Below, in pieces: positions 5,366 to 28,966 of a stretch of DNA of 64,000 nt (within the stretch, counting starts at the first letter, position 1; every line of letters starts with the position of its first letter). Source of the stretch: Halorussus caseinilyticus (lineage in GTDB: Archaea; Halobacteriota; Halobacteria; Halobacteriales; Haladaptataceae). A model generated the notes under the pieces. The model was given only the letters and a program-made list of their open reading frames with translations, had not been told where the DNA came from and made no database searches. Both the position numbers and the translations under genes were made by a program. The stretch covers positions 1 to 64,000 of the forward strand of contig NZ_CP119811.1 of NCBI RefSeq assembly GCF_029338395.1. Direction: 5' to 3'.

Positions 5366-5985
5366 TTACTGAATCTCATCGAACGCCTGTTCGATGTTCT
5401 GCATCGCTTCGTAGACGGCATCCGCGTCAGTAACCTCCATTGTAGTAATAACCAGCAAGCCACCGTCATCAAGCGAGTCAATACGAGCGGCGGGCAAGCT
5501 CTTCAACCACTCACGGCCGTACGCCTCTACCATCTCTGGCGGGAACAACATTAGCCACGTCGGATGGTTAATCCGGTTCTCGGCCAACTTCTTGTCGCTA
5601 ATCGGTGGCGGAACTTCAACATCAATTGCTTCAAGTCGATACGAGAGCATCCCGAAACCGTACAGCGGATCGGTCGCGTGATAGATGAGCGTCACAAATT
5701 CGAGAAACGAGGCCAACCTCTTGTCGCCGTCATCCCGACGAAGTTCATCTAAACCGATTCCCATCGATAAAATTTGTTTGTTGTACGGGAATACATGGGA
5801 CATTTTCTCGGGCGAGAGATAGGTGTGGATTGAATTGGATTTTAGCCTAAGCTTGTCTTCCTTTCTGAAACATATGTAAGGTCGTTAGAGGAGTCTTCGT
5901 CAAGATAGTTCTGAACCTGTGAGATTGACTCGACAGGATTAGTTTCTTCGCAGAGAAATCCAGCGAGCAAATGAAACTCCGTCAT
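5366..5985 (-). pseudogene. Immunity-protein-like gene, frameshifted
   Basis: The start codon ATG at 5985 overlaps the stop of the toxin gene (ATGA overlap at 5982-5985), the usual arrangement for translational coupling of toxin and immunity genes. The first frame gives MTEFHLLAGFLCEETNPVES... for about 47 codons and then stops. The rest continues in another frame (KLRLKSNSIHTYLSPEKMSH... to ...NIEQAFDEIQ). One base missing near 5855-5862 explains both. Restored, the protein would be about 206 aa, acidic and without a signal peptide, as expected for a cytoplasmic immunity protein, possibly of the Imm52 type (weak guess). A shorter product could start at ATG 5803 (145 aa). Immunity role inferred from position. 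Confidence 0.65.
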
Positions 5986-8900
5986 ATTGTAACTGGTTCT
6001 TTGAGTTCGTTTGATATTTCTTTTGGTTCGACAACCGCCGCGCTTAACGCTGAATTCCGATCCGAGGATGGTCGTAGTTGGACAGTGTATGTTCTAACAG
6101 TAAACCAATCCTTGTCAATCTTCGTGGCTATCTGTTGAGTTGCTTCCTCATTTCCGGAGTATAGCACCATCCGTACGTCGTCAACATCACTGCTGAGCTT
6201 GTCAAGTGCAAACATAAACGTTGCTTTCTTTTTGAGTTCTTCTTCCCGTAATGTTTTTACATTCTTTGCCTCGTAGTAGACATCACCGCCATCGCTATCG
6301 ATTTTGAAACCATCGAACTCAGGGTCTTTATTATTCGATGAGTCCAGTCCGAGATCGTCTCGAACCTCTTCGACATCGTTCTTGCTTCCATAGACCTTCT
6401 TTGCGATGTCCTCAAGTTGCGCATCGCTAAGACGACTAAAGTCAAGGTCTGGCGTATAATCTAACCTGAGGGTGTCTCCTGAATCAAGCTTAGGACGCAA
6501 TTTGTTGCGGGCGAACCGTAGTTCGTACGTACTACCTTTAATCCGATTGTAAGCTAATGTCGGTGTAGCCGGTAGATTCGTGATGCCATTAGGATCACCG
6601 TACAGGACTTCAGGAACACCTTCGATTCGCTCATCGCCATCTAAGACTCTTATATCGTCAGTGACTCGGCCAGTGTACTCCGCGCTGATGTGGTTGTACC
6701 CATACGACGTTGCAAGTGAATTCCGAACGTCGTCTTCTAAGTCGCTTGGAACATCGTAGCCACTCTTGTCAACGGTGAACGTCAAGAACTCCTGTACTTC
6801 AGACGCATCGTCGAAGCCACGGAGTAACGAAATACCGTCGCCGCCCGTCGTAGCAACTAATTGGACCAGATTTCTCTCTCCATAGTAGTCCAGCGACCCC
6901 ATGCGCTTAAGAACATAGTCTACGTCGGCGGTTGACACATCCATACTCTCCGACCGCCACGCTTGAACGAGCAACCGCTGAGACTCGGTATCCAGCTTAA
7001 CGAACTGGTTGAGTGCTTCGTCGTCGAGGTCGCTGGCCATCCGGACACCGTAGCGACTCGTCTGCGCGAAGGCTAGCCGGGCGTTGGCGTCTTTCACGTC
7101 GGTCGTGTCTAACCGTGCGCCGAACTCGCTCGGGTCCACGTCCGTCTCCGTGACTGCATCGCTGTACGCTCGTTGCTTGCGGTCGGATAGCTCCGTACAC
7201 CCTCCGCCAGCGAATCGCTGTGTCCCGAGACCACTGCCGCACAGTCGGCCGAACAACGCCTCGAAGTCCGCGTCGTCCATCCGTCGGAGGTCCTCAGCCC
7301 CGTCCGCGCCATGGCGCGCGAGGTACCGCACGACCCGGTCGCGCTCAATGTCTGACAGGTCGCTCGTGTCCACCTCGCCTTCGCGTTGCAACCGCCAGAG
7401 TCGATAGGCCGCACCCGCCGACTTCGCCCGCCGGAGTAGCGGTCCCGACGCTCGCTCGGTCGCTCGCGCCAACCCGGTCGCCACCCGCGCTTTTCCGCGG
7501 TCGTAGGGTGCTTTCACTCGCATCGCGGCCTTGCCTGCGCGCGTGGATTTGGCGAAGTTCGAGACCTTCTGGGCGTACGTCGAACTCTTGATGACTTTCG
7601 TGGCTTGTGCGCCTGCAATCGCTTTCGTGATGAACGCGACGGTGTAGCCCGCATACCAGCTATTACGGTACTCGTCGTAGAGCGCCGACCCCTCTGCGTA
7701 GGGGTTGTTCGTCTTCTGTTTGTCTTGGAGGCTCGACACCATCGCGTCGAGGAACATCCCGAGCAGGCCCGACTCGTCGAGTAGGTCGATGAGGCCGGTC
7801 AGTCCTTTGACGAATCCGAGCGGGTCGTTGACCAACCCGAGGAGCGACTTGATGGTGCCGCCCATCCCCGCCGAAAAGCCAGAGAGCGCCCCAAGTTTCT
7901 CGGCGGCCCCCGTCGCGTACATCGTGTCCGCGTCGAGTTTCCCGGCGAGACGCCCCACAGCGTTGGCTTTCCGGATGCCGACCGTTTTCTTCCGGTTGCC
8001 GTGGCTGTCGGTCGCGGTGACTTCGACGGTCGCGCCCGCGAGTTCGTCCGCGACGGCGCTCACGCCCGACACCGAGAACGACCCGTCGTGGCGACTGAAC
8101 ACCGCGTTCGGCGACGCCCGGTAGCGCGTCTTCCCGTTCTTCTCGACGGCGGTGTGTTCGACGCCGCTGGGGTCGAACAGGAGGTACTCGAGGATGTACT
8201 CGATTTCCATCTCGCTGTAGTTGGCGAGATAGCCGTATCTGGCCAGACGGATGTCCGGCGGCCGATAGTCGTAGAGTGTCGGGTCTTCGCCGACCGCGCG
8301 TTCGCGGCCGTCAAGCAGGCCGTCGCCGTCGCTGTCGGGATTGTTCGGGTCGGTCTTGTGAAGCCACTCTTCGCGGTCCGAGAGGCCGTCGTTGTCCGAG
8401 TCGTACGCGAAGGGGTTGCTGTTGGTCCACTCCGTCGTGAGATGTTCGGCTTTGTCCGAGGGCGACTCGCCGTTGAGATACTTCCGGGAGGCGTCCGGAC
8501 TCCGGGTGACCGCGGTGTCGAACCCACGTAGCTCTTGGGCGTCCGAGAGGCCGTCGTGGTCGGTGTCCCGGACCGTCGGGTTGCTCCGCAGGCGGTTGTA
8601 CACCCGACCGTGAACCTGCTGGCGCTCGCCCACCTCGTAGCTGTCGCTCAACCCGTCGCCGTCGGTGTCCGCCAGCCGCGGGTCGGTGTCTAGACACTGC
8701 CCCCGGCCGTCCCGCAGGCCACACGTCCCGCGTTCGACCGCGTCGTACAACGTGTCGCCGTCGGTGTCGTAGCCGAGTTTCAGCGCGTCAATCTCGAACG
8801 TGGCGCGGCCGACCGTCTCGATTTTGATGGTGACTTGCTCGCCCGCGTACTCCGAGAGGTCGTGTTCGACCGCCTCGAAATCCCCGTGAGCGTCACCCCC

Positions 8901-9929
8901 GCCGCCGGGGAGGACAGCCTCCGCGCCGAGTTGGGATTCGCGGACGCTCTCGGTACTCGCGTACGTGTTGTCCTCGCCGTAGACCCGAGTGCGTTCGCCG
9001 TCCGGCCCGATGACCACGAGTTCGGCCACTGACCGATAGCTGATGGCGTTGGCTTTCGCCACCACGCCGAGCGTGACGGTTTCGGCGTCGCGTAAGGTGA
9101 CGGTGCGTTCTAAACTCGACTCTCGCGGGCAACCGTTGGGTTTCCAGCCGGGGAACTGGGGGCAGTCGTCGTAGTAGTTGCGGGTGTTGTCGCCGTCGTC
9201 GTCGGTGGGACAGCCGTTCGAGAGCGTCCCCGGTTCGTCCGGACAGTCGTCGAAAAAGTCGTTGTAGTCGTCGCCGTCGGTGTTTTTCGCACACCCGTTC
9301 TCGCGGACTCCCGGCGTGTTCGGACACTCGTCGTGGAAGTCCGACACCTCGTCGGCGTCGCTGTGGGTCGGGCACCCGTCGCCGTACCCCTCCTTGTTGT
9401 CGCACTCGTCGTTGTAATCTTTGATACCGTCGTTGTCGCTATGCTGGGGACACCCGTTGTTCTCACCCGGCGTCGCCGGACAGTCGTCGTAGCGGTCGTA
9501 CGTTCCGTCGCCGTCCGAGTCGACCTTCGGGTCCGGGTTCGACACTTCCTCTTCGGTCGTCTCCGAGGGTTCCTCGGTCGGCTCACATCCCCAGTTGCTC
9601 TCCGGCCCGGACTGCTCGCAGTATTCGTAACCTGACACCGTTTCCGTCGTCGTCGCCGTCACTGTGGTCGTCGTTTCGGACCCCTCCGATGTCGTAGTCG
9701 TCTCGCTCTCGGTCTCAGACGGCTTCGACCAGTTGCGCTCGGTCTGCTCGCGCGTGAGCGACCCGACTACCGCCGCCGACTCCTCGCTGGCGGCGTCGCT
9801 CGTGGCGACTCCGGCGCGGTCGACCGTCGCCGTCGAGACGTTGCCGTCCTCTTCCTGCCGTCGAGGGTGCTGAAGTTGTCCGTGTTCGACCACTTGTCCG
9901 GGAGCGCGCGGTCGAACCGCGATTCCCAC
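5982..9929 (-). CDS. Polymorphic toxin, C-terminal part with PD-(D/E)xK-like nuclease tip (downstream of a frameshift)
   Basis: This frame continues the protein that starts at 12247. The junction is near 9855, where one base appears to be missing, so residues before about QEEDGNVSTATVDRAG (codon ~25) are not authentic. In order it has a Thr/Ser-rich linker, Cys-containing thrombospondin-type-3 repeats (DDCPATPGENNGCP-like units, ~130-270), a beta domain, Asp-rich calcium repeats (~390-550), a hydrophobic pre-toxin segment (~690-790), long charged helices, and a C-terminal ~220-residue tip with EFDGFKIDSD...YYEAKNVK. That pattern fits a PD-(D/E)xK nuclease core (D, then E-x-K). The architecture is that of polymorphic toxins, which are secreted and deliver a variable tip to neighbouring cells. 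The tip is unrelated to that of the 40027 copy. Nuclease activity is inferred. Confidence 0.75.
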   Translation of the reverse strand: MGIAVRPRAPGQVVEHGQLQHPRRQEEDGNVSTATVDRAGVATSDAASEESAAVVGSLTREQTERNWSKPSETESETTTTSEGSETTTTVTATTTETVSGYEYCEQSGPESNWGCEPTEEPSETTEEEVSNPDPKVDSDGDGTYDRYDDCPATPGENNGCPQHSDNDGIKDYNDECDNKEGYGDGCPTHSDADEVSDFHDECPNTPGVRENGCAKNTDGDDYNDFFDDCPDEPGTLSNGCPTDDDGDNTRNYYDDCPQFPGWKPNGCPRESSLERTVTLRDAETVTLGVVAKANAISYRSVAELVVIGPDGERTRVYGEDNTYASTESVRESQLGAEAVLPGGGGDAHGDFEAVEHDLSEYAGEQVTIKIETVGRATFEIDALKLGYDTDGDTLYDAVERGTCGLRDGRGQCLDTDPRLADTDGDGLSDSYEVGERQQVHGRVYNRLRSNPTVRDTDHDGLSDAQELRGFDTAVTRSPDASRKYLNGESPSDKAEHLTTEWTNSNPFAYDSDNDGLSDREEWLHKTDPNNPDSDGDGLLDGRERAVGEDPTLYDYRPPDIRLARYGYLANYSEMEIEYILEYLLFDPSGVEHTAVEKNGKTRYRASPNAVFSRHDGSFSVSGVSAVADELAGATVEVTATDSHGNRKKTVGIRKANAVGRLAGKLDADTMYATGAAEKLGALSGFSAGMGGTIKSLLGLVNDPLGFVKGLTGLIDLLDESGLLGMFLDAMVSSLQDKQKTNNPYAEGSALYDEYRNSWYAGYTVAFITKAIAGAQATKVIKSSTYAQKVSNFAKSTRAGKAAMRVKAPYDRGKARVATGLARATERASGPLLRRAKSAGAAYRLWRLQREGEVDTSDLSDIERDRVVRYLARHGADGAEDLRRMDDADFEALFGRLCGSGLGTQRFAGGGCTELSDRKQRAYSDAVTETDVDPSEFGARLDTTDVKDANARLAFAQTSRYGVRMASDLDDEALNQFVKLDTESQRLLVQAWRSESMDVSTADVDYVLKRMGSLDYYGERNLVQLVATTGGDGISLLRGFDDASEVQEFLTFTVDKSGYDVPSDLEDDVRNSLATSYGYNHISAEYTGRVTDDIRVLDGDERIEGVPEVLYGDPNGITNLPATPTLAYNRIKGSTYELRFARNKLRPKLDSGDTLRLDYTPDLDFSRLSDAQLEDIAKKVYGSKNDVEEVRDDLGLDSSNNKDPEFDGFKIDSDGGDVYYEAKNVKTLREEELKKKATFMFALDKLSSDVDDVRMVLYSGNEEATQQIATKIDKDWFTVRTYTVQLRPSSDRNSALSAAVVEPKEISNELKEPVTI

Positions 9930-12247
9930 GTCTCAGTTGACAGCACCGTGTACGTCGAGAAGTGCGGCGTCTCGGCGGTCACCGTGTCGTTGCGGGTGTC
10001 TACCGTCGAGTTGGTGACGGCGACGAACGTCTGGAGCGTCTCGTTGTACCGATACGCGCCGAGCGTCGTCTCGTTCTCGGCGCTGACCCGCGAGTCGTTG
10101 TACGGCAACGAGATGGTCGCCGTCGAGAAGTTCGCCTCCGCCTCGAAGTCGTAGGCCCTCGACGCGCTGGCGTTCCGCACGCTCGCGGTCTCCAGAATCG
10201 TCCGCGAACTCGTGTTCACCGACACCGCGCCCGCGACGTTGCCTTCGCCGGTGACGTTGACGGTGACGCCGGTCTCTTCGTCGGTGGTCTCGGTCGCAAA
10301 CGTCTCGTCGCTGTCCAGCACGCCGTCACCGTCGGTGTCGGGGTCGGTCGGGTCGGTGCCGACTTCGTACTCGTCGGGGTCACGCAGACCGTCGCTGTCG
10401 GTGTCGGGCGACAAGGGGTCGGTCTCGTTGGCGAGTTCCGCCGAGTCGTTCAACGTGTCGCCGTCGGTGTCGTTTTCGACCGGATTCGTACCTGCTGTCT
10501 GCTCGCGGCGGTTCGACAGCGAGTCGTTGTCGAGGTCCTCGGCGGGGTCCCGAACCGTGTCGTTGTCGGAGTCGGTGTCCAGCGGGTCGAGCGCTTGGAA
10601 CTGGAGTTCGAAGCCGTCCTGTAGGCGGTCGCCGTCGGTGTCGTTGTCCAGCGGGTCGAGGTCGAACCAGTAGGCTTGCGCGGCGGTCTCCCCGTCGTTG
10701 TCGAAGTCCTCCGCCCCGTCCGTGATGTTGTTGCCCGACTCGTTGAACGAAGTCCGCGAAGCGTTGCTGTCCGGCCCCAAGGGGTCGGTTCCCGTCACGT
10801 TCAACTCGTAGAAGTCCGGCAACCCATCGCCGTCGAGTCGAAGCACGTCCCGGCCGACGGTCGCGTTCTCGCCGCCGTAGTCGGGCGACCATCGCCGGTT
10901 CGGGTCGGTCGCCGACACCGTAATCCGGTTGACCTGCCGCGAAAGCGTCACGTTCGTCTCGAAGGTGCCGACCGCGCCCGGCGTCGTATTCACGGCGAGG
11001 TCGAGCGTCCGGTTCGCCCCGTTCAACGACAGCGACAACGCGAGTTCGTGGCCTCGAACGTCGAAGACGCGGCCGCGAACCGCGTAGGTGACGTTCTCCT
11101 CGTGGGGCATGTCCTCGCGGGTGGTGATGGTGACGTTCGGGGTGGCGGCGAGGTCGAGTACGTCGAGGGCTTGCTGGGCGTGAATCCACGCGACTCGGTA
11201 CTGGCTGATGGCGGTATGCTGTTGGCCGCGCGCCCGGAACCGCTCGGCGCGCTCGACTGCTCGGCGCGCCCCGGAGATGTTCTCTGCGACGGCTTGCTGG
11301 TCGAACGAGACGTTCCGGTCGTTCAGAGTCGTGGCGAGACGGTCGGCGTCCGCGATAGCCGTATGAGCTAATCGCTCGTCCGACCGCACCAGTAGTTTCG
11401 TGACGCTCGGCGCGAACTGCGGGGGTGTACTCGCTTCTTTGTCGCGCTCGAAGAGTTCCGCGGAGGTGGTGCGGTTGGCGTCGAGAACGTAATCGAGTGA
11501 TTCGTTGAGTTCGCGGAGGGCTTGTCTGCGGTGGTCGTCGGCGGAGCTACCGGGCGCGTCGAACTCGGTAGTCTGGAGGGCGTCGATGGCGGCGAGCCGG
11601 TAGTCGGCGGCCGACGCATTCTCGCGGATAGAGACGTTGAAAGTCGCGTTCGCCAGTGGTTCGCTCCGGTTGGCGAGCGCCGAGCGGTTCGAGACTGGTG
11701 GCGGGGCTTGGCCGTTCTTCGCCCATTCTGGCGGGCCGCGTTTGTCCGTGTTCGAGTTCCCGCCCTTGTTCGGCACCCACGACGGCGGCCCCGCGTGCGG
11801 TGGCGGTCCCTGACCGGGGTTCTCGGGTGGTCCCTGTCCGGGATTCTCCGGTGGGCCTTGCGTCTTGTTCTCCGGCGGTCCCTGTCCGGGGTTTTCGGGC
11901 GGTCCCTGCGTTTTGTTCTTTGGCGGTCCCTGTCCGGGGTTTTCCGGTGGGCTTTGGCCGGGCGTGGTCGTCTCATTCCCGGCCGTCGTCGTGGTCGCGG
12001 TCGTGGTCGTGGTCTTCGACGGTCCGTTCCCCTTGCCGTTCCCCGGTCCGTTTCCGTTGCCGTTGCCGGGGGTGTCGGGGAAGAGTTCGTGGCCTGCGAT
12101 GGTGGTGGCGAGCGACGAGAGTGAGGGGAGGTCGGCGTCGGACTGGGAGGGTGGCGAGTCAAGGGCGGCGGTGGCGGGCGTGACCGTCGCCGTGACGATA
12201 AGGATGGAGAAGGCGACGGCGAGAATCTGCTGGCTCCGAGCGTTCAT
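9767..12247 (-). CDS. Polymorphic toxin, N-terminal part (secreted stalk)
   Basis: This part starts at ATG 12247 with a signal peptide (MNARSQQILAVAFSILIV, cleavage near Ala28). It is followed by Gly/Asn repeats, QGPPENPGQGPP repeats (~85-150), a helical region (~190-380), an Ig-like domain (~395-465), EF-like Asp repeats (~475-660, units such as TDGDGVLDSDE) and a beta domain ending in TPHFSTYTVLS. After FSTLDG (near 9855) the frame runs into 30 Arg-rich junk residues, while the +2 frame continues the protein to 5982, so one base seems to be missing. Intact, the protein would be ~2090 aa. The DUF7504-CHAT operon diverges from it. N-glycosylation sequons are frequent, as in haloarchaeal surface proteins. 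Confidence 0.8.
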   Translation of the reverse strand: MNARSQQILAVAFSILIVTATVTPATAALDSPPSQSDADLPSLSSLATTIAGHELFPDTPGNGNGNGPGNGKGNGPSKTTTTTATTTTAGNETTTPGQSPPENPGQGPPKNKTQGPPENPGQGPPENKTQGPPENPGQGPPENPGQGPPPHAGPPSWVPNKGGNSNTDKRGPPEWAKNGQAPPPVSNRSALANRSEPLANATFNVSIRENASAADYRLAAIDALQTTEFDAPGSSADDHRRQALRELNESLDYVLDANRTTSAELFERDKEASTPPQFAPSVTKLLVRSDERLAHTAIADADRLATTLNDRNVSFDQQAVAENISGARRAVERAERFRARGQQHTAISQYRVAWIHAQQALDVLDLAATPNVTITTREDMPHEENVTYAVRGRVFDVRGHELALSLSLNGANRTLDLAVNTTPGAVGTFETNVTLSRQVNRITVSATDPNRRWSPDYGGENATVGRDVLRLDGDGLPDFYELNVTGTDPLGPDSNASRTSFNESGNNITDGAEDFDNDGETAAQAYWFDLDPLDNDTDGDRLQDGFELQFQALDPLDTDSDNDTVRDPAEDLDNDSLSNRREQTAGTNPVENDTDGDTLNDSAELANETDPLSPDTDSDGLRDPDEYEVGTDPTDPDTDGDGVLDSDETFATETTDEETGVTVNVTGEGNVAGAVSVNTSSRTILETASVRNASASRAYDFEAEANFSTATISLPYNDSRVSAENETTLGAYRYNETLQTFVAVTNSTVDTRNDTVTAETPHFSTYTVLSTETWESRFDRALPDKWSNTDNFSTLDGRKRTATSRRRRSTAPESPRATPPARSRRR

Positions 12248-12370
12248 TGCAGTGCAGTAGAAACTAGCATCTAAAGTGTCTATTGCGTATTATAAAATCT
12301 GATACTGAATGGAAGATTGAAATAACAGAGACGAATGAGACCTGTTATAGCAGGTAGTTAAATACTGAAA
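12248..12370 (-). promoter_or_regulatory. Toxin promoter block, near-identical copy at 45180-45300
   Basis: From the toxin start codon outward, about 120 bases (AGTAGAAACTAGCATC, TATTATAAAATCTGATAC, CCTGTTATAGCAGG) are nearly identical to 45180-45300. The TATTATAAAAT element and the hairpin CCTG-TTATAG-CAGG are conserved. This identity is higher than in much of the coding sequence, which suggests recent duplication or gene conversion. The remaining bases up to 12556 hold no other gene. Confidence 0.6.
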
Positions 12371-12556
12371 GACTGTTACTCGGTTGCTCGGTTACTGATA
12401 GCAATTCACGGACTAAGCGGCGGTCATTCCGACGACAAACCGTCTCTCGGTGTTGGCTCCGGCATCCCTGCGGTTCTTCAGACCGATATGTTGGCGGGGG
12501 ATTGCGGAAACTGGAACGGGGGGTTCTCTCGCGGGTGAAGCGGATAGAATTAATGT

Positions 12557-13249
12557 GTGTACGATGAAATGGCTGGTATGAGAATGATTGGAGATGTCTC
12601 GCGTTTGTTTCGGGGGAGCGGACGGGAGACAGTGCGAGTGTTCGCACAGCGACTCGCGGAGTTGAAACAGACGGGGTGTAGTATCCTCGTGACGGGGACC
12701 GTGGACGAAGATGGGTTCGGCGAGCAACTGGCGTTGTCGTTCGGAGGTCCCGACCGGAAACAGGTTCTCGTCACACCCCACGAACCCCGGAACCCCGGCC
12801 GTGTCCTCCCCGACGGGGTGACGGCCGACATGGAGAGCGTTCGACTCGTAAGCGGCGAGCAGGCGCGTCGAGCGGCGACCGCCGAACCGGGGATGGCGGA
12901 CGGGCTTGGAGTCGTGAGCGACGACATATTGGCCGCGGTCAACGAGTTAGGTGACGAGTACGACCTCGCCGCGAACGACCTGCGGGTCGGAGTGACGGCG
13001 TTGGACCAATTGGGGACCGATGTTGGGTCAGAGTCGGTTCGGCGGTTCGTGCGGACGGCCTCGCAGTGTGTGAGTCTGGTGAATGGGACGCTGTACTGTC
13101 AGTTCCGCGATGACCCTGAGCGTGCCGCGTACTTGCTCGACGGAGAGTTGTTCGATGCGCGTGTCGAATTACGGTCACAGCCGGAGCAGGTCGAACAGCG
13201 CTGGCATCTGCCCGCCGACGACATCACCACGGACTGGATTCCGGTGTAA
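12557..13249 (+). CDS. DUF7504-family haloarchaeal protein
   Basis: A 230-aa acidic protein without membrane segments. It has a core like the haloarchaeal DUF7504 family: CSILVTGTVDEDGFGEQLALSF resembles a degenerate P-loop/RecA-like strand-loop-helix, and strands VGVTALDQL and LVNGTLYCQF follow. The start could be GTG 12557 or ATG 12569 or 12578; an AT-rich element lies just upstream. It ends 2 bases before the CHAT protease gene, so the two are translationally close and almost certainly co-transcribed. In other haloarchaea DUF7504 proteins are often signalling or conflict-related, but the function is not known. The family call comes from memory of sequence patterns, not from a search. Confidence 0.65.
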   Translation: MYDEMAGMRMIGDVSRLFRGSGRETVRVFAQRLAELKQTGCSILVTGTVDEDGFGEQLALSFGGPDRKQVLVTPHEPRNPGRVLPDGVTADMESVRLVSGEQARRAATAEPGMADGLGVVSDDILAAVNELGDEYDLAANDLRVGVTALDQLGTDVGSESVRRFVRTASQCVSLVNGTLYCQFRDDPERAAYLLDGELFDARVELRSQPEQVEQRWHLPADDITTDWIPV

Positions 13250-13251
13250 GC

Positions 13252-15195
13252 ATGGAACCGACCGTCACACTACGCGACGACGGCCGTGGTATCCGGATTT
13301 TCGACCCGATAGAGAACGCCTACTTCGAAGTCGAGACAGCCACGCCGGTCGCCCCGGACACGGTGGCGTGCGACCACTTCCGATTCCCAGTTGAAACCGC
13401 GGTCGAACTCGTAACGACCGCGCTCCAGATTCCCGAGTTGACGAGTATCTTTCTCCACACCGACGATGGACTTGCAGACGCGTTCGACCCGTCAGACGGC
13501 CAGCTTCAGACGGACGGGCCGCGGACGCTCGAAGTGAATATCGCGCCGACGAAACTCTACCTCCGAGTCAACCAGCCCGTGACGATTCACCGCGACGGCG
13601 ATGTCGTCCGCCTCGACTTCGATGGGGAGACGGTGGTCCGGGTGGGCGTGCGGTCGCTCCACGACCGGCCCGCAGGCACGATTACGACGACGCCGAATCC
13701 GGAGGGCGCGATGCGGGCGGTGTCGCTTCTCGGGTCGGCGCTCAAAACGACGAGTCCGGAACGGTCGTTCCCGACCCTCCGCGGGCATCCACCACTGATA
13801 GAAGTCGGCGACGAGTTCGACGCGCCCGACGGCATCAACCGTCCGGATACTGGCGTCCGTATCGAAGTCCCACCGGAGTACGAGTACGTCTATCCCGTGT
13901 CGTCGCTCGCCTACTACCTCGGCGCGGAAGTCGTCCCCGGCGACCGGCCGCGACTCGCCACCGACGACGGCTTCGCGTACAGCCTTGACGGGCCGGAAGG
14001 GTTCGAGCAGACGGTCGGCCGCGTCCTCCGACAGACGTTCCTGCTGGATTGCGTGACGCGAACCGAAGGCTACTATCAGGTCGACCTCCACGAGCGACAG
14101 CTAGTCGAATCCGAGGTAGACCTTGAGTTCACCGCGCTCTACGACCGGCCGCTCGCCGACCGCCTCTCGGCGTACCTCGGCGTGTCGTTCGAGACGGTCG
14201 CGGACGTAATTCCCGACTGGCCGCTGACGGTGGACGTGGACCCGACGGTGGAGAGTCTCGACGCGATTCCGTTCGTCGCCAACGATTTAGCGGTCGTGCG
14301 GACGACGCCCAACCCCGACCCGAAGTCGGTGAAAGAGACGCCGGAGGTGATTACGGACTTCCTCGGCGCAAAGAACGACGAACCAGTCACCACCGAGTTC
14401 GTCACACCAGAGCCAGTCCCGTTCGAGACGATTGGGCATGCGTGGGTGGGCGACCGGCCGCCGGTCGGCGCGAACAAACTCACCGTCGAGTCGCTCCGCC
14501 GGAGTCTCGACGTGGACCCCGACGAGTCGCCGATACGGATTCACGTCGTCTGCAACGACACCGCAATGCAGGACGAACAGGTCGTTTCGGAGTACTACCA
14601 GTTGAACGAACACCACCGGTTCGACATCTCGATGCACACGGAACTCTCGGTCGCGGAGTTCCGCGAGTTGCTCGCGGACCCGGCGGATTTCCTCCACTAT
14701 ATCGGCCACGTTGACGACGACGGTATCGTCTGTCCCGACGGCCACCTCGACACCACGACGCTCGTGGACGTGAACGTCAAAGCATTCCTGTTGAACGCGT
14801 GTGACTCCCACGAGCAAGGCATGGGACTCGTCGAAGCGGGAAGTCTCGGCGGCATCATCACCCTCTCGGACATCGCCGACTCAATAGCCACCCGTGCAGG
14901 CCTCCACTTCGCCCGCCTGCTCGCCGCAGGCCACACCCTCCGCACCAGCGTCCACGTCCTCCGCAAACAACTCCTCGCCGGAACCCGCTGGATGACCGTC
15001 GGCAACGGCGGCCTCTCACTCTGCCACTGCAAAAGCGGAAATCCGCTCTACCTCAGAATTTCTTGCCCTGACAAGGAAACATGGCGGACTGAAGTAGAGG
15101 GGTTCCCGTCACCGACTCACGGCCTTGGCACTGCGTTTAGTCTGTATCTCGATTCGGACACCCGTTACCTCGTCGGTGGTCAACTGCTACCTTAG
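13252..15195 (+). CDS. CHAT-domain (caspase-like) peptidase
   Basis: A 647-aa protein with no signal peptide. The first ~400 residues are beta-rich sensor or scaffold sequence. The C-terminal ~200 residues form a CHAT domain of clan CD cysteine peptidases: catalytic His in HYIGHVDDDGIVCPDGH (about residue 485) and catalytic Cys in FLLNACDSHEQGMGL (about 517), followed by the GS-LGGIITLSD segment. CHAT proteases act as executioners in several prokaryotic defence systems. Its partner here is the DUF7504 protein encoded 2 bases upstream. The stop at 15193-15195 appears premature: a +1 change there would add ~38 residues ending at 15304. Peptidase fold is well supported; target and trigger are unknown. 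Confidence 0.85.
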   Translation: MEPTVTLRDDGRGIRIFDPIENAYFEVETATPVAPDTVACDHFRFPVETAVELVTTALQIPELTSIFLHTDDGLADAFDPSDGQLQTDGPRTLEVNIAPTKLYLRVNQPVTIHRDGDVVRLDFDGETVVRVGVRSLHDRPAGTITTTPNPEGAMRAVSLLGSALKTTSPERSFPTLRGHPPLIEVGDEFDAPDGINRPDTGVRIEVPPEYEYVYPVSSLAYYLGAEVVPGDRPRLATDDGFAYSLDGPEGFEQTVGRVLRQTFLLDCVTRTEGYYQVDLHERQLVESEVDLEFTALYDRPLADRLSAYLGVSFETVADVIPDWPLTVDVDPTVESLDAIPFVANDLAVVRTTPNPDPKSVKETPEVITDFLGAKNDEPVTTEFVTPEPVPFETIGHAWVGDRPPVGANKLTVESLRRSLDVDPDESPIRIHVVCNDTAMQDEQVVSEYYQLNEHHRFDISMHTELSVAEFRELLADPADFLHYIGHVDDDGIVCPDGHLDTTTLVDVNVKAFLLNACDSHEQGMGLVEAGSLGGIITLSDIADSIATRAGLHFARLLAAGHTLRTSVHVLRKQLLAGTRWMTVGNGGLSLCHCKSGNPLYLRISCPDKETWRTEVEGFPSPTHGLGTAFSLYLDSDTRYLVGGQLLP

Positions 15196-15304
15196 ACCTA
15201 AACGCGTCTGAATTGGACAAGATACTAGAGAGTGACCTGATACCCATCGATTTCAACGATGAGCGATACTGGAGTAATGAGGTTGCCGCGTCAGACCTAC
15301 GTTA
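15196..15304 (+). pseudogene. Probable out-of-frame C-terminal tail of the CHAT protein
   Basis: Directly after the stop, a different frame reads DLNASELDKILESDLIP then DFNDERYWSNEVAASDLR and a stop at 15304. It has no start codon and its composition matches the preceding protein, so it is most simply the displaced native C-terminus after loss of one base near 15190. Confidence 0.5.
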
Positions 15305-15610
15305 GGGTCCGGGATGACCGTCTCCAGTTGGTGTGATACCATATTCGAAAAGGCGATGGGTCAGGAGGGTCGCGGTAAAGACTGCGCCGAGTGCTTTCGG
15401 GTGGTTGCGTCCGAGGGTGGTGAGTTTCTCTTTCATTGCAGGTGGAGTGTGTCGGTCGATTGTAATACTTTTAATGGTACGATTCTGGAATTTGTCAATA
15501 GGTACCGATTCCGGAGGAACGGACTACGATGTAGTCTCAATCCCGGTTAACGCCGTAGAAGTCTTCGACGGCGGCTTCAATGTCGGCGGCTATCGCGTCG
15601 AGACGGTCGG
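15305..15610. other. Gene-free stretch
   Basis: No supported gene was found. An AT-richer part (15440-15500) is followed by G+C-rich relic sequence leading into the orphan CRISPR repeat. Confidence 0.35.
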
Positions 15611-16660: not shown

Positions 16661-17065
16661 ATGGCGTCGAACACGCACGAGACCGACGCCGAGACCGAGA
16701 CCGACAGTGAGGTGGTGCGCGTCGAGGCGGCCGTCGAACAAGTCTTGAACGGCTTGCAGGTCGGACTTCCCGGCGCAACCACAACCTGCGCCTACTGCGG
16801 ACGACAGCTGCACGACGGCGACTGTATAACCGTCTACGCCTACCGGAAAGCCGGACACCACCACTGGAACTGCCCCAGAGTGTACTGTCGCAGCTGTCGG
16901 AACAGCGACGACGGCGTACCGACGCCCACCCTCGGCACCACCGAGATTCTCGCCACCGCCTTCCTCGGCATCATGCAGGTCGCCGCCGCACAAACCACAC
17001 GGTTAGCGTTAACGGACGTAGAGGTGCAGAGCTACAGTCACCCAAGCGACGGAAGCGAAGGATAA
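16661..17065 (+). CDS. Zinc-binding protein of module Y (134 aa)
   Basis: The acidic N-terminus is followed by CAYCGRQLHDGDC, YRKAGHHHWNCPRVYCRSC (a Cys/His cluster that could hold one or two zinc ions), then the hydrophobic TLGTTEILATAFLGIMQVAAAQTTRLAL and a tail SYSHPSDGSEG. No known family is recognised. The start codon directly follows the upstream stop, so the pair is co-translated. The last ~30 bases (encoding SHPSDGSEG) recur at 24226 and, as a scar, at 25634. The paralogue is at 23849. Confidence 0.75.
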   Translation: MASNTHETDAETETDSEVVRVEAAVEQVLNGLQVGLPGATTTCAYCGRQLHDGDCITVYAYRKAGHHHWNCPRVYCRSCRNSDDGVPTPTLGTTEILATAFLGIMQVAAAQTTRLALTDVEVQSYSHPSDGSEG

Positions 17066-17185: not shown

Positions 17186-18079
17186 ATGGGCAAGATGCTT
17201 CCAATTCGCTGGTACGGCGGTAAATACTCACACTTAGATTTCATTCTACCACAGCTCCCTCAAACACACCAGTACATCGAACCATTTGGTGGAAGTGCCG
17301 CGGTTCTGTTGAATCGTGACCCCAGTCCTGTGGAAACATATAACGACATTGATGGAGATGTTGTCAATTTCTTTAAAGTTCTGCGAGAGAATCGGGACGA
17401 ACTGCTGGAGAAAATCTCACTTACACCATTTTCCAGAGAAGAACTCGCTGAAGCGGTCGAAAAAAAGCAAAACGATGATTTGAGCGAGCTTGAACGGGCT
17501 CGCCTGTTTTTTGTCCGAGCGGGACAAACACGAAGTGGTCTTGCACAAGAAGCGACCCCCGGACGATGGGCATACTGTAAGTCCACATCACGACGAAACA
17601 TGTCGGGGGCGGTTAGCCGATACCATGGCCGTCTTGAACAATTGTACGACGTAGCAGACCGTTTACGACGTGTTCAAATAGAGAACAAGGACGCAGTTGA
17701 AGTAATTGAACGGCATGAGGATGAAGACGCTTTGTTCTACTGTGACCCTCCTTACCCTCATGAAGTACGTGGCGATACAAACAGCTATGGTCACGAGATG
17801 ACAGACGAAGACCATCGTGAACTCGCTGAGACTCTTCGGAATTGTGAAGGTAAAGTCGCGGTCTCAGGGTACTGTTGTGACCTCTACGAAGAAATTTTTG
17901 AGGATTACGGGTGGAACCGAGTAGACGCGGAGTCGAAAACGATGCACACGACCAAGGATGAGCGACAGGAATCGCTCTGGTTGAATTACGAACCGCCAAA
18001 TCGAAATGTTGAACCCGGCGTGGATGTCGATGAAATTGATAATCAGCAACAAACTCTTGTGGATGCTACTGACGAGTAA
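17186..18079 (+). CDS. DNA adenine methyltransferase, Dam/D12 class
   Basis: A 297-aa N6-adenine methyltransferase that uses S-adenosylmethionine. Motif I is IEPFGGSAAVLLNRD (~31-45), an N-terminal RWYGGK motif (~8-13) is typical of the D12 class, and the catalytic motif IV is FYCDPPYP (~185-192). Its length is normal for the family. It carries lower G+C than its neighbours, suggesting separate acquisition. It precedes a SacI-like endonuclease by 83 bases, forming a type II restriction-modification pair; the methylase would protect the host site. Start ATG 17186 or 17195. Recognition sequence cannot be read from the protein. Confidence 0.92.
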   Translation: MGKMLPIRWYGGKYSHLDFILPQLPQTHQYIEPFGGSAAVLLNRDPSPVETYNDIDGDVVNFFKVLRENRDELLEKISLTPFSREELAEAVEKKQNDDLSELERARLFFVRAGQTRSGLAQEATPGRWAYCKSTSRRNMSGAVSRYHGRLEQLYDVADRLRRVQIENKDAVEVIERHEDEDALFYCDPPYPHEVRGDTNSYGHEMTDEDHRELAETLRNCEGKVAVSGYCCDLYEEIFEDYGWNRVDAESKTMHTTKDERQESLWLNYEPPNRNVEPGVDVDEIDNQQQTLVDATDE

Positions 18080-18162
18080 CTCATAACCCCACTAGGATTT
18101 TTCCTATACATTCGGTTTTTCGCTTATATAGCTTTTTACCTGACTCTTAGACTCTTTTCTCG

Positions 18163-19263
18163 GTGTCTACATTGGCGGAAAGCGTTGACAATAGCGAAGC
18201 CAAGGAACTTCTAAACCAGGAATGGAATCGCGTTTTGAACAACGACCAAAACACATACGTTGAAGATGGTTTCGTACGGCAGAAAATCGGCGAGGTTCTA
18301 AACGCTTCCCAACTCACATATAAGTATATTCTCACGACGAATATACTTGCAAAGGCTGTTAATCCTCGAATTCATTACCGAGCAATGCAGGCACAGTGGG
18401 ACCATCCCGGTGCATACAACGCTCGTTCACTCGGACATGACGTACTCGTAGAATGGGAGAAAGACCATGGTGAGCGCCTTGGTGGTTCAAATGAACCGTT
18501 TCTGAATAAACCTGCTCGGTACCCCAATTTCTCGATGGAGAATCCCCATCGGTCCGAGAAGGCACATAGTCGTCTCTACGAGCTTCTGGAACAACTCCAA
18601 GAGAAGACTGAATCCGGCGAAATTGAACCGGTAGATATTCTTCGCCAGACCTTATCCGAAATAGAGGAACTAGAATCTCAAACCGTTGATTTTGTTTCAC
18701 CATCGGATGTCCCGTACCAGTCTCTCCGAAATCAGGTAGAGAAATATATTCGTAAATCTGGAGGTGGAGAGCGTCTTGCGTCAATCACAGCAGGCGTGAT
18801 GAAAGCGTACTATTCTCATACAGATGGGGAAGATTGGACTATTGAGGCAGAACATCCAAATGTTCCAGACGAATTCAGTAATGCGGCCGGTGACGTAGAA
18901 ATAAAGCGTGGGGGTGACGTTGTACGGGCGATAGAGGTTAAAGACAAACATAGCGAGCGAAGTGATATTCAACATGCAATTACGAAAGCCCGTGAAAATG
19001 AACTCGGAGAGTACCTCTACGTCGTCGGTAGCGGTTGGCGGAATAAAACCGAAAAAGAGAGAGCCCAAGAAGAGATTGAAAACGCTCCTATCGAATTAAT
19101 TCTCATCTATCCGGATGAGTTACTCAACCTTCTGAAATTCATTACGGATGCTGGACGAAAGCAATTCGTGGAAGCTGTCGGTGAGTATCTAAACAAGATG
19201 CGCGCGAGCGAGGAAAACAAACAAAACTGGAAGGAGTTAGTGACTGAGTTAGGAGATAGCTAG
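18163..19263 (+). CDS. Type II restriction endonuclease, SacI-like
   Basis: A 366-aa protein starting at GTG. The segment NPRIHYRAMQAQ...GAYNARSLGHDVLVEWE and GGSNEPFLNKPARYP is characteristic of the SacI endonuclease family. A nuclease core D-V-E-I ... IEVKDKHSE (about 245-265) fits PD-(D/E)xK. It cleaves DNA at sites left unmethylated by the methylase encoded just upstream. The gene is AT-richer than the surrounding DNA and ends in a T-rich stretch. The known SacI partner is usually a cytosine methylase, so pairing with an adenine methylase is slightly unusual. Confidence 0.8.
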   Translation: MSTLAESVDNSEAKELLNQEWNRVLNNDQNTYVEDGFVRQKIGEVLNASQLTYKYILTTNILAKAVNPRIHYRAMQAQWDHPGAYNARSLGHDVLVEWEKDHGERLGGSNEPFLNKPARYPNFSMENPHRSEKAHSRLYELLEQLQEKTESGEIEPVDILRQTLSEIEELESQTVDFVSPSDVPYQSLRNQVEKYIRKSGGGERLASITAGVMKAYYSHTDGEDWTIEAEHPNVPDEFSNAAGDVEIKRGGDVVRAIEVKDKHSERSDIQHAITKARENELGEYLYVVGSGWRNKTEKERAQEEIENAPIELILIYPDELLNLLKFITDAGRKQFVEAVGEYLNKMRASEENKQNWKELVTELGDS

Positions 19264-20130: not shown

Positions 20131-20229
20131 ATGTACGCAATCAGAGCGCGGGGACTTGAATCTCCCGCACGGTTAGCGGCGCGTATCGCATTCAGAACCA
20201 ACCCGTTCGCTGGAGGTGCCGAAGCGTGA
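20131..20229 (+). CDS. Micro-ORF MYAIRARGLESP (32 aa)
   Basis: ATG 20131 to TGA 20229. It is highly similar to the X2 copy at 27808 (MYAIRTRGLESPARIAARIAF). Its stop overlaps the GTG start of the regulator gene by four bases (GTGA), so the regulator is probably translated by coupling. The basic, small product may be a leader peptide. The ATGTACGC start is shared with the micro-ORFs of module Y. Confidence 0.55.
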   Translation: MYAIRARGLESPARLAARIAFRTNPFAGGAEA

Positions 20230-20651
20230 CGGCCGAGGCTCTGCCGTCGCTGGTGGACCTGCACGGGTTCCAACGGGACGTACTGTTCGCCGTTCGCGCG
20301 CTGGAACGCGGCGGCGACCCGCCGAGGGGCCTTCGGGTGAAACGCCGGTTGGAAGCGACGTATTACGAGGAGGTGCATCACGGCCGTCTGTACCAGAACC
20401 TCGACACGCTCGCCGACCAAAACCTCATCTCGAAGGGCGCGAAGGATGGCCGCGCGAACGAGTACGCGACGACCGACGCGGCGCGCACTATCCTCGACGC
20501 GCACGTCCGGGCGCGCGCCGAGCAAGCGGGCGTCGAACTCGCCAACAACGAACCCGACGCCTTCCCGAGCGACGAGACCGAGACCGAGACGCGAAGCCGC
20601 GGTGAACAGACGGAACTGGGCGACACCCCGGCAACGGAGGGCGAAGCGTAG
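20226..20651 (+). CDS. PadR-like winged-helix regulator of module X1
   Basis: A 141-aa protein from GTG 20226. Residues ~8-90 form a winged helix (VDLHGFQRDVLFAVRALERGG, VKRRLEATYYEEVHHGRLYQNLDTLADQNLISKG) as in archaeal PadR-type regulators. An acidic Glu/Thr-rich tail follows. The N-terminus overlaps the micro-ORF stop, and the stop shares one base with the GTG of the next gene. It is about 90% identical to the X2 copy at 27903. Relics of its 3' half lie at 15650 and 22812. It is a likely regulator of module X. Confidence 0.8.
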   Translation: MTAEALPSLVDLHGFQRDVLFAVRALERGGDPPRGLRVKRRLEATYYEEVHHGRLYQNLDTLADQNLISKGAKDGRANEYATTDAARTILDAHVRARAEQAGVELANNEPDAFPSDETETETRSRGEQTELGDTPATEGEA

Positions 20652-21154
20652 TGACCGCCCGCGACGAGTTCGGGCCGGACCTCGACACCGCAATCCCGGA
20701 AACGTTCGACGTGTGCCCGGACTGTGGCACGCCGACGGTGAAATTGGGGAGTCACGACTGTCCGGCCGACGAGTCCTTGCAGGACCCGACGCGGGAGGAA
20801 CGCGACCGGCGTATCGAGAACGACCCCTACTCGGACGACGAGACCGTGCTGGTGCGTGACCGGCCGCGGCCGTGGGCCTACGCCTATCACGAACGCGGTG
20901 ACGACCGCCAAACGTTGTGTCCCGCCCACCAGAACTCCGAGTTCTACGAATGCCCGCGCTCGAAGGCGAAAGAACGCGGGTTCTCGCCGTGCCAGTTCTG
21001 CCGCCGCATCCGCGACGCCAACAGCGACGACGCCGACCGCGACCGGGACGGAAAGAGTTCCGACCGGGACGACGACGCCGAGAGTTCTGACCGAGAGCGC
21101 AACGACCGGGACGACGATGCCGACCGTGAGCGCGGGGTGGTTGCGTGTGAGTAG
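20651..21154 (+). CDS. Zinc-ribbon protein of module X1 (167 aa)
   Basis: The GTG start overlaps the upstream stop by one base. It contains CPDCGTPTVKLGSHDC (zinc site 1) and a second set around LCPAHQNSEFYEC...PCQFCRRIRD (zinc site 2), then a long Asp/Arg/Glu/Ser-rich disordered tail that varies in length from the X2 copy. No known family is recognised. It ends 8 bases inside the next small gene. Confidence 0.7.
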   Translation: MTARDEFGPDLDTAIPETFDVCPDCGTPTVKLGSHDCPADESLQDPTREERDRRIENDPYSDDETVLVRDRPRPWAYAYHERGDDRQTLCPAHQNSEFYECPRSKAKERGFSPCQFCRRIRDANSDDADRDRDGKSSDRDDDAESSDRERNDRDDDADRERGVVACE

Positions 21155-21269
21155 CGCGCGCCCGGCGCTTGCGGACGGCCGGTGTCCGGAATGCGGCCGC
21201 TCTATCACCGCGCTCTCGGCGACCGGCCCGGACGCCCATACCGCCGACCCCTGCGGTTGCACCGTCTAA
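21147..21269 (+). CDS. Tiny zinc-ribbon protein (40 aa)
   Basis: It starts at GTG 21147 inside the end of the preceding gene and ends at TAA 21269. It contains CPECGRSITALSATGPDAHTADPCGC, four Cys that can bind one zinc ion. The X2 copy (28812-28940) keeps all four Cys despite several changes around them, which supports it as a real gene. Confidence 0.65.
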   Translation: MSSARPALADGRCPECGRSITALSATGPDAHTADPCGCTV

Positions 21270-21293
21270 CAACCAACCAGACTCTCGAAACCA

Positions 21294-21653
21294 ATGAGCG
21301 ACAACATCGAAGACACGACTGACAGTACCGCCAACAAAGCACTCGACGCGACCATCGCGCCCGCCGCGACGAAAGCGGACAAGCAAGACATCGTGTACTA
21401 CCTCGAACGCTTGTTCGTCGGGGCGTACCCACCCGGCACCACGCTCCAGTACTACGACTACGAACTCACCCACACCACGGAGGGCGTGTGGAGCGTTCAA
21501 CACCGCGACGACGCCAACCCTATCGACGTGCTGAATCCCGACGCCTTCCGGAGCGCCACCGAACTACAGGCGTACCTCGACGCGCTCGCCGACTACGCGC
21601 CCGACGACCGCGACGACTGGTACGCCCACCGTGCGGGAGGTGACGGACAGTGA
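21294..21653 (+). CDS. Conserved 119-aa acidic protein of module X
   Basis: An acidic N-terminus (~30 aa, variable between copies) is followed by a well-conserved part: ADKQDIVYYLERLFVGAYPPGTTLQYYDYELTH, then ELQAYLDALADYAPDDRDDW. No known domain is recognised. Its stop overlaps the GTG of the next gene (GTGA), so translation is coupled. Confidence 0.7.
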   Translation: MSDNIEDTTDSTANKALDATIAPAATKADKQDIVYYLERLFVGAYPPGTTLQYYDYELTHTTEGVWSVQHRDDANPIDVLNPDAFRSATELQAYLDALADYAPDDRDDWYAHRAGGDGQ

Positions 21654-22381
21654 GCGCCGACGAGTTCGACCAGCCAATCGACGCGCTCGACCAGCAAGCA
21701 CTCGCCCGCGAAGTCCGCCAACTCCGCGAGGAAGTCGAACAACTCCGCGCGAAGGTTGACGGGCAAGAAACAGAACTCGAACAACTTCGCGGCGACCTGC
21801 AACGCGAACGCCGTGAACGGAAGGACGCCGAGGAAGAACTCAGAAAAGAACGCACCCAACAGATTGCGAACGCGAAACTCTCCATCCACGACGACATCGA
21901 AGACCTCCACGACACGGTGGTCTCGGAGCAACAGACGCGAAGCCGTGCGGACGCCCGACTCAAGCATCGCGTGAACGAGGTTGCTGAAGCGGCCGACGTG
22001 GAAGTCACCGACGCCGACCTCATCGAGAAAGACCGTCTCGTCCGCCTCGTCCGGAACGGCCCGGAAGACGTGACGGACCGTATCTATCCGGTTCACGAAC
22101 GCGCCCAAGCTCTACTTGAACACGCCGAGGATTGGGGGCGGGTCGTCTCGGACGCCAACGGCTACCGCGTCGTCTACACCGCCCCCGACGCACGACCGTT
22201 CTTGAACGCGTACTTCGGCCGGACGTTCAAGTCGAGCGAAATCAAGCGCATCTTCGAGAAAATCCGGGACCTCGCCGAAACCTCGCCCCGCACCGTCCGC
22301 AGGGACAAAACGCGGAAGGGTGAACACGTTCTGACGGTCGAAATCACCGCAGAGGACGGCATCCTCGCCGCCGACGGCTAG
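21650..22381 (+). CDS. Coiled-coil protein with C-terminal winged-helix-like domain (243 aa)
   Basis: Residues ~15-75 are heptad-rich (LREEVEQLRAKVDGQETELE..., LRKERTQQIA). The C-terminal half (IYPVHERAQALLEHAEDWGRVV, FLNAYFGRTFKSSEIKRIFEKI) looks like a helical DNA-binding domain of the kind seen in plasmid partition or replication proteins, but no family is recognised. It is the most conserved gene of module X (copy at 29326). A fragment survives in reverse at 45515-45550. It is the last gene of the operon, just before a strong hairpin. Confidence 0.7.
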   Translation: MSADEFDQPIDALDQQALAREVRQLREEVEQLRAKVDGQETELEQLRGDLQRERRERKDAEEELRKERTQQIANAKLSIHDDIEDLHDTVVSEQQTRSRADARLKHRVNEVAEAADVEVTDADLIEKDRLVRLVRNGPEDVTDRIYPVHERAQALLEHAEDWGRVVSDANGYRVVYTAPDARPFLNAYFGRTFKSSEIKRIFEKIRDLAETSPRTVRRDKTRKGEHVLTVEITAEDGILAADG

Positions 22382-23848: not shown

Positions 23849-24256
23849 ATGGCGTCTCGGACCGGCACGGACGCCGACGGCGACGTGGACGGCGCGGACG
23901 GTGAGGTGGTGCGCGTCGAGGCAACGGTCGAACAGGTGTTGAACGGCGTACGGGTCGGACTCGACGGTGCGAGCGGTGTCTGTGCCTACTGCGGCCGCGA
24001 GCTACACGACGGCGACTGTGTGACGGTGTACGCCTACCGGAAGGCCGGACACGATACGTGGAACTGTCCGAGAGTCTACTGCCGCGACTGTCGCAGTGGT
24101 GATGGTGTTTCCACGCCCACCCTCGGTACGACCGAGGTGACGGCGACCGCCTTCCTCGGCGTCATGCAGGTCGCCGCCCAAACCACACGGTTAGCGTTGA
24201 CCAACGTCGAACTCGAAAGCTACAGTCGGCCGAGCGACGGAAGCGAGGGTGGGTAA
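23849..24256 (+). CDS. Zinc-binding protein of module Y2 (135 aa)
   Basis: Paralogue of the protein at 16661: acidic N-terminus, CAYCGRELHDGDC, YRKAGHDTWNCPRVYCRDC, hydrophobic segment TAFLGVMQVAAQTTRLAL and tail SYSRPSDGSEGG. The acidic N-terminus is the most variable part. The gene is followed by toxin-antitoxin cargo in the opposite orientation, where the Y1 copy is followed by a restriction-modification system. Confidence 0.75.
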   Translation: MASRTGTDADGDVDGADGEVVRVEATVEQVLNGVRVGLDGASGVCAYCGRELHDGDCVTVYAYRKAGHDTWNCPRVYCRDCRSGDGVSTPTLGTTEVTATAFLGVMQVAAQTTRLALTNVELESYSRPSDGSEGG

Positions 24257-27807: not shown

Positions 27808-27906
27808 ATGTACGCAATCAGAACGCGGGGACTTGAATCTCCCGCACGGATAGCGGCGCGTATCGCATTCACAACCAACCCGTTCGCTGGAGGTGCCGGA
27901 CGGTGA
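27808..27906 (+). CDS. Micro-ORF MYAIRTRGLESP (32 aa), X2 copy
   Basis: It has the same length as the X1 copy; its TGA overlaps the GTG of the regulator gene. About 27 of 32 residues are identical between the copies. Confidence 0.55.
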   Translation: MYAIRTRGLESPARIAARIAFTTNPFAGGAGR

Positions 27907-28325
27907 CGGACTCGCTCCCGTCGTTGGTAGACCTGCACGGGTTCCAACGGGACGTACTGTTCGCCGTTCGCGCGCTGGAACGGGACGGCGACCCGCCGAG
28001 GGGCCTTCGGGTGAAACGCCGGTTGGAAGCGACGTATTACGAGGAAGTGCATCACGGCCGTCTGTACCAGAACCTCGACACACTCGCCGAACAGAACTTG
28101 ATAGCGAAGGGCGCGAAGGACGGCCGCGCCAACGAGTACGCGACGACCGAGGCGGCGCGCACTATCCTCGACGCGCACGTTCGGGCGCGCGCCGAACAAG
28201 CGGGCGTCGAACTCGCCACCGACGCGAACGCCTTCCCGAGCGAGAACGGGACCGGGACCGAGACGCGAAGCCGTGGTGAACAGACGGAACTGGGCGATAC
28301 GCCAGCAACAGGGGGCGAAGCGTAG
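27903..28325 (+). CDS. PadR-like winged-helix regulator of module X2
   Basis: A 140-aa paralogue of the 20226 protein. The winged helix (VDLHGFQRDVLFAVRALERD, LYQNLDTLAEQNLIAKG) is almost unchanged; differences cluster in the acidic tail (DANAFPSENGTGTETRS). It has the same overlapping gene junctions on both sides as in X1. Confidence 0.8.
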   Translation: MTDSLPSLVDLHGFQRDVLFAVRALERDGDPPRGLRVKRRLEATYYEEVHHGRLYQNLDTLAEQNLIAKGAKDGRANEYATTEAARTILDAHVRARAEQAGVELATDANAFPSENGTGTETRSRGEQTELGDTPATGGEA

Positions 28326-28819: not shown

Positions 28820-28940
28820 CACTACCGCGTGTTCGGCGCTCGCGGACGGCCACTGTCCGAAATGCGGGACGCCGATTACGGCGCTGTCGGCGGACGGCCC
28901 GGACGCCCACCATGCCGACCCCTGCGGTTGCACCGTCTAA
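28812..28940 (+). CDS. Tiny zinc-ribbon protein (42 aa), X2 copy
   Basis: It runs from GTG 28812 to TAA 28940 and contains CPKCGTPITALSADGPDAH and PCGC. It overlaps the end of the upstream gene by 8 bases as in X1. Confidence 0.65.
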   Translation: MSSTTACSALADGHCPKCGTPITALSADGPDAHHADPCGCTV

Positions 28941-28966
28941 CAACCAACCAGAGACTCTCGAAACCA

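Follow-up and report, generated by a model that had tools for sequence, protein, structure and literature searches.

What does a haloarchaeal CHAT protease do in the cell when it is encoded two bases downstream of a DUF7504 protein, and is such a pair a defence system? The question is raised by the window (the whole 64,000-nucleotide stretch analysed, positions 1 to 64,000 of contig NZ_CP119811.1 of Halorussus caseinilyticus), which carries this pair at 12557-15305. A preliminary description of the sequence had taken the pair for an undescribed two-gene haloarchaeal system, with a role in defence suggested by its position between polymorphic toxins and a defence scaffold. We find that the novelty of the locus is a CHAT protease whose C-terminal module is exchanged between alleles, and our confidence in the anatomy of the pair and in the exchange of the tail is high. 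The pair is part of a core family of haloarchaea that has expanded and consists of soluble CHAT (clan CD) proteases, often co-encoded with a KaiC-like pseudo-ATPase of the DUF7504 family. The features of the pair are the following.

12557..13249, plus strand: DUF7504 protein with a KaiC-like fold, predicted pseudo-ATPase without the Walker A lysine (Pfam, AlphaFold 2 and Foldseek)
13252..15305, plus strand: CHAT-fold cysteine protease, 684 amino acids in the intact frame (frame of the second copy, Pfam CHAT matches of paralogs, AlphaFold 2 and Foldseek)
14707..14709, plus strand: codon of the catalytic His486, motif HYIGH
14800..14802, plus strand: codon of the catalytic Cys517, motif LNACxS
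15037..15305, plus strand: exchangeable C-terminal tail, codons ~596-684, beta-rich and well modelled (protein and DNA comparisons)
15185..15185, plus strand: probable one-base sequencing frameshift in a CTAG context (comparison with the duplicate reading of this plasmid region)

The DUF7504 gene starts at GTG 12557 or at the in-frame ATG 12578 and stops at 13249, and a 2-base gap separates it from the CHAT start at 13252. As printed in the window, the CHAT frame comprises 647 amino acids and stops at 15195. The same plasmid stretch was assembled twice: window 3687-23689 recurs as C3:146001-166000 with 99.95% identity over 20 kb, and the contig ends overlap. The 100% identical "paralog" at C3:155567 is this second reading and not a duplication. 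At position 15185 it contains an extra A (ACTAGC, where the window has ACTGC). With this base the CHAT protein extends to 684 amino acids and ends at a stop codon at 15303-15305, a single base beyond the end at 15304 given previously. Differences between the copies are mostly single- or two-base insertions or deletions (indels), several of them at CTAG, and several open reading frames are broken by them; CTAG itself is rare here (46 found versus 113 expected). The frame break at 15185 is very probably a sequencing error and the stop at 15195 false. Contigs C3 and C4 have ends repeating ~43 kb and ~34 kb, respectively, and both appear to be over-circularised.

Taken alone, the CHAT protein of the window had no significant sequence match in Pfam, NCBIfam, PADLOC or the PDB, so that no solved relative was available by sequence. 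The Pfam CHAT model (PF12770) matched 6 of 11 paralogs in the same genome (E up to 1, best 1.7e-4), and a single one, with its neighbours in frame, lay just over the curated cut-off; the model thus barely detects the haloarchaeal family. An AlphaFold model built from 73 homologs reached a mean predicted local distance difference test score (pLDDT) of 92.9 and a predicted template modelling score (pTM) of 0.92. Its Foldseek matches were gingipain R (2.1e-7), a SAVED-CHAT filament (8tl0, 2.8e-7), separases and TPR-CHAT (7y84, 2.7e-4), as expected of a caspase-like (CHAT, clan CD) fold. His486 and Cys517 were invariant in 73/73 homologs, in agreement with the intact dyad noticed in the preliminary description; the protein is probably an active protease. 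Asn515, at the position two residues before the cysteine (Cys-2), was likewise invariant in 73/73 sequences. This position holds an acidic residue in metacaspases and Gln in caspases. Because it is Asn and not acidic here, a preference for arginine or lysine through Cys-2 seems unlikely, although this is inference only. No evident hydrophobic signal was present at the CHAT N-terminus, and neither a toxin domain nor an immunity gene was found at the CHAT loci. With no evident signal peptide and no secretion or immunity genes, an intracellular site of action is favoured.

The partner matched PF24336 with 77.1 bits (curated cut-off 27, E=3e-21), its AlphaFold model had a pLDDT of 90.1, and the best Foldseek matches were all KaiC (E to 4.5e-8), to which it is also weakly similar in sequence. 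In none of 41 aligned pair members was the conserved strand followed by a Walker A GK[ST], which bears out the degenerate P-loop-like strand described earlier; from its model, the CHAT-paired DUF7504 is a predicted KaiC-like pseudo-ATPase. Pairing was counted from six-frame hidden Markov model matches. For 79/147 CHAT genes, a DUF7504 gene in the same orientation lay no more than 1.5 kb away, upstream in 65 and downstream in 14, and most upstream copies were within ~100 bp of CHAT. The gene order and spacing first reported, and the claim of an undescribed pair, stand, and the pair is recurrent. On plasmid C4 (L010:10170-10632, minus strand, and likewise L011), DUF7504 has an internal deletion and a frame change in both readings and the CHAT gene is open in one of the two, so that CHAT may persist without its partner. 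Relatives of DUF7504 without CHAT also occur in the same genome (L234:3044-3700, plus strand; L236:2061-3867, minus strand). Among these copies, one has an intact-looking P-loop (GPPMTGKR) and one adjoins a HalX-type response regulator, which suggests that they may belong to a wider signalling family.

An unexpected property of the protease is the behaviour of its C-terminus. The window protein and its C4 paralog share about 52% of amino acids in the tail and about 90% in the remainder. In all tail comparisons each species was represented by one genome, and the pairs used for the proportion of synonymous differences (pS) and for locus profiles were picked for closeness, not at random. Among close pairs of 127 dereplicated proteins, the sliding window 601-660 was 57% divergent, versus 23% for the remainder, and its divergence correlated with that of the remainder at 0.27, versus 0.62-0.87 for other windows. 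When 33 pairs with core identity of 0.90-0.985 were taken from 158 sequences, tail identity was 0.3-0.5 in 17 and >0.8 in 7, while every other 79-amino-acid window stayed at 0.6 identity or above. In 11/14 pairs pS was 0.51-0.86 in the tail versus 0.07-0.31 in the N-terminal part; the other 3/14, one of them at a locus linked to serine hydroxymethyltransferase (SHMT), showed no such jump. Near-saturated tail pS indicates replacement and not only fast amino acid change. Consistently, DNA identity between close relatives was ~90-97% on both sides of the gene and across the protease, and collapsed in the last ~250-300 bp of the gene, so that a folded C-terminal module has been replaced by recombination while its flanks were conserved. 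Low-identity 50-bp bins made up 47/65 (72%) of the tail, as against 4-7% elsewhere: 18/483 of the rest of CHAT, 10/180 upstream and 31/420 downstream. In Haloferax, L217 and L218 are 99% identical outside the tail and 75% within it, whereas L218 and L221 are 95% and 93% identical; tail alleles are common to different Haloferax species, and some tails look mosaic.

At two loci of the same genome, a partial copy comes after the CHAT gene; it duplicates the catalytic region (DNA identity 95% in one case, 89% in the other) before continuing into a different tail. The two copies lie between CHAT and DUF7504, beside expressed genes.

L014:10834-11583, plus strand: partial CHAT copy with alternative tail
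L015:5716-6390, minus strand: partial CHAT copy with alternative tail

The tails of these copies resemble tails at the same locus type in relatives, and the copies are possible silent recombination donors. A general donor store of this kind was not supported: none was found at the flanks of the remaining CHAT loci covered, namely those of 116 genes and 40 further Halorussus regions. Nor did tails appear to move between distant loci, as no pair with tail identity >0.5 exceeded its core identity by 0.05; exchange therefore probably takes place inside locus-specific allele pools. Mutagenesis by a diversity-generating retroelement (DGR) was rejected, because no reverse transcriptase (RVT_1) was present in the whole genome and divergence is of the whole module at the DNA level. 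Co-variation of the tail with DUF7504 was also discarded, since DUF7504 divergence tracks the protease core (rho 0.81) more than the tail (0.43).

The family is widespread. Eleven distinct full-length members, plus fragments, were found in the H. caseinilyticus genome, and 27/27 genomes of its family (Haladaptataceae) carry 4-20 CHAT matches each. At least one member was present in 223/242 genomes of the class Halobacteria, with up to ~20 copies each, and exactly one copy in 15/15 genomes of Haloferax, the genus of the Haloferax gibbonsii sequence. The search outside the class covered the phylum and found, in one family, single distant members, most of which keep the dyad and at least one of which does not. 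The latter, L172, has both catalytic residues replaced (IGR, CTDSS) and is a probable pseudo-protease; L173-L175 retain both. Carriage by viruses was not supported, with no relative among 50,697 phage records or in IMG/VR viral contigs. Our literature search returned no paper mentioning "CHAT domain" together with either haloarchaea or Haloferax volcanii; although >90% of the Halobacteria genomes sampled encode it, this protease of clan CD fold appears to be undescribed in the literature searched.

Position was the argument of the preliminary description for a defence role, and this part did not survive a survey of neighbourhoods. The genes that recur around CHAT are housekeeping genes, which differ from lineage to lineage, together with some regulators, notably HalX-type response regulators at 16 loci. 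Pfam analysis of 136 neighbours at 20 loci returned SHMT, FolD, biotin enzymes, TbsP, YcaO and similar families, and IMP dehydrogenase and amino acid biosynthesis genes were found as well. PADLOC families were in no excess among these 136 neighbours relative to 136 control proteins located 150 kb away in the same genomes. That description had itself named a pair found mostly among housekeeping genes, with no enrichment in defence islands, as the outcome that would speak against it; since this is the outcome obtained, the defence-island reading fails. A toxin as obligate partner was rejected too: homologs of the TSP3-repeat toxin lie beside CHAT only on the C3 and C4 plasmids of this species, and none was found at CHAT loci of relatives except for a 61-amino-acid toxC match at L031. 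The tail cassette, of which the preliminary description was unaware, provides independent grounds to suspect a role in recognition or conflict.

Several known systems share part of this design. In the Thiohalocapsa DGR 2 system, the target is a CHAT protein whose diversified C-terminal part was proposed to sense invaders (PMC10907252). Both cases combine a CHAT protease with a variable C-terminal part. However, haloarchaeal tails are replaced as whole modules and not point-mutated, RVT_1 is missing from the H. caseinilyticus genome, and the pair has no recognised CLec domain and no STAND, TIR or MoxR partner. The CHAT fold, here taken from a predicted model, and the His/Cys dyad are shared with TPR-CHAT/Csx29 (Craspase) and SAVED-CHAT. 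Unlike these, the 11 paralogs had no TPR or SAVED Pfam match, type III CRISPR neighbours were lacking, the N-terminal architecture is of its own kind and the partner KaiC-like; Foldseek matches were only partial (TMq about 0.2). Polymorphic toxin systems exchange C-terminal cassettes (PMC3482391) and resemble the present case in their constant body, in the swapping of a C-terminal module by recombination and in stand-alone partial copies nearby. In contrast to them, catalysis here probably resides in the constant part and recognition in the variable part, and neither an evident secretion signal nor an immunity gene accompanies CHAT. Finally, DUF7504 shares the RecA-like fold of KaiC but has lost the Walker A motif when paired with CHAT.

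We tentatively favour a recognition-triggered protease with an exchangeable recognition tail, a reading that, taken as a whole, could well prove wrong. The tail would bind a variable partner, which might be the product of a virus or mobile element, an inhibitor, or a marker of self or kin, and binding would release protease activity. DUF7504 would be the invariable component, serving as scaffold or regulator, and the protease would cleave host proteins and so bring about arrest, a stress response or death. Selection would favour rare or new tail alleles and could be diversifying or balancing; we infer balancing selection. Polymorphism of this kind, with alleles found across species, is commonly associated with recognition subject to frequency-dependent selection. 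Several points weigh against this proposal. Balancing selection is deduced from comparisons between species, at one genome per species. CHAT neighbourhoods are not defence islands, almost half of the CHAT genes lack a co-oriented DUF7504 within 1.5 kb, and donor-like partial copies were seen only in the H. caseinilyticus genome. Moreover, SHMT-adjacent copies (L019/L182, L140/L147) show no tail exchange, which is thus not universal. The main rival is a housekeeping or stress protease whose tail is a substrate-docking domain varying with substrate or adaptor, possibly the source of caspase-like activity in H. volcanii. A dominant activity of this type, linked to stress, was reported by Seth-Pasricha et al. 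(PMC3615174), who noted that archaeal genomes lack clear homologs and called for identification of the protein(s); in the accessible part of that paper, the activity has no identified archaeal gene and the CHAT family is not considered as its source. A CHAT protein of clan CD fold in every Haloferax genome searched makes the family a candidate, and a candidate only, for this activity. The near-universal chromosomal occurrence, the housekeeping neighbourhoods with their HalX-type regulators and the single copy in all 15 Haloferax genomes fit such a protease well, and Pfam CHAT gives no match in H. volcanii, which would explain why the protein was overlooked. Nevertheless, synonymous saturation confined to the tail and alleles crossing species would be unusual for a housekeeping docking domain, and the same paper cites similar activity in Pyrococcus and Sulfolobus, beyond the range in which our phylum-wide search found the family. 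We regard the stress protease as unlikely, yet a serious contender.

A dedicated two-gene antiviral system of the defence-island type would be in line with the action of CHAT proteases in known defence systems (TPR-CHAT, SAVED-CHAT), with the plasmid location of the window copy and the type II restriction-modification pair downstream of it, and with module exchange as expected of an arms race. It is nonetheless improbable given the absence of PADLOC enrichment over control, the housekeeping neighbourhoods, the nearly half of CHAT genes that are unpaired and the vertically retained single copy of Haloferax. If instead the tail were a weakly constrained end in which recombination is neutrally tolerated, its C-terminal location and lowest overall conservation would be accounted for. 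This we consider very unlikely, as the tail is modelled confidently (block pLDDT mostly 86-96) and maintains a similar length, every tail allele has conserved motifs, downstream DNA is conserved, and equally variable N-terminal windows undergo no such replacement. The slimmest chance goes to a system by which cells tell self from non-self, such as a compatibility check inside the cell once haloarchaeal cells have fused, in which tail alleles would serve as identity tags. The restriction of polymorphism to a single module, tail alleles common to several species, a death-type protease fold and the lack of an evident N-terminal signal peptide would suit it, but each Halorussus genome, with its multiple loci, would require many tags, and a gene for a partner antigen was not found nearby. 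A broader version of the recognition-triggered protease has little probability in our view: intracellular caspase-fold receptors that swap their binding module in the manner of histocompatibility or self-incompatibility alleles, forming a retroelement-free archaeal immune or allorecognition system that would also underlie the Haloferax caspase-like activity. With a single copy in Haloferax, roles in caspase activity, antiviral action and self-recognition are directly testable in a genetic model.

The surroundings of the pair in the window comprise the following elements.

12248..12556, no strand: intergenic stretch from which the TSP3-repeat gene and the DUF7504-CHAT pair diverge (sequence)
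5982-12247, minus strand: TSP3-repeat secreted toxin-like gene, single ~2,088-codon frame (two copies combined)
5366-5803: candidate immunity gene
17186-19263, plus strand: two genes of a type II restriction-modification system, encoding a D12-class adenine methyltransferase and a SacI-like endonuclease (RE_SacI 1e-51)
20226-22381 and 27903-30054, also 16661-17065 and 23849-24256: repeated plasmid blocks

The divergent TSP3-repeat toxin-like gene starts at 12247, ~310 bp from the pair; the indels that interrupt it differ from one copy to the other and are apparently of sequencing origin. Fragments at 1-1341 and ~41-45 kb have N-terminal parts in common with it. The repeated blocks consist of four small genes and a zinc-finger-like gene and recur along the plasmid with ~86% DNA identity.
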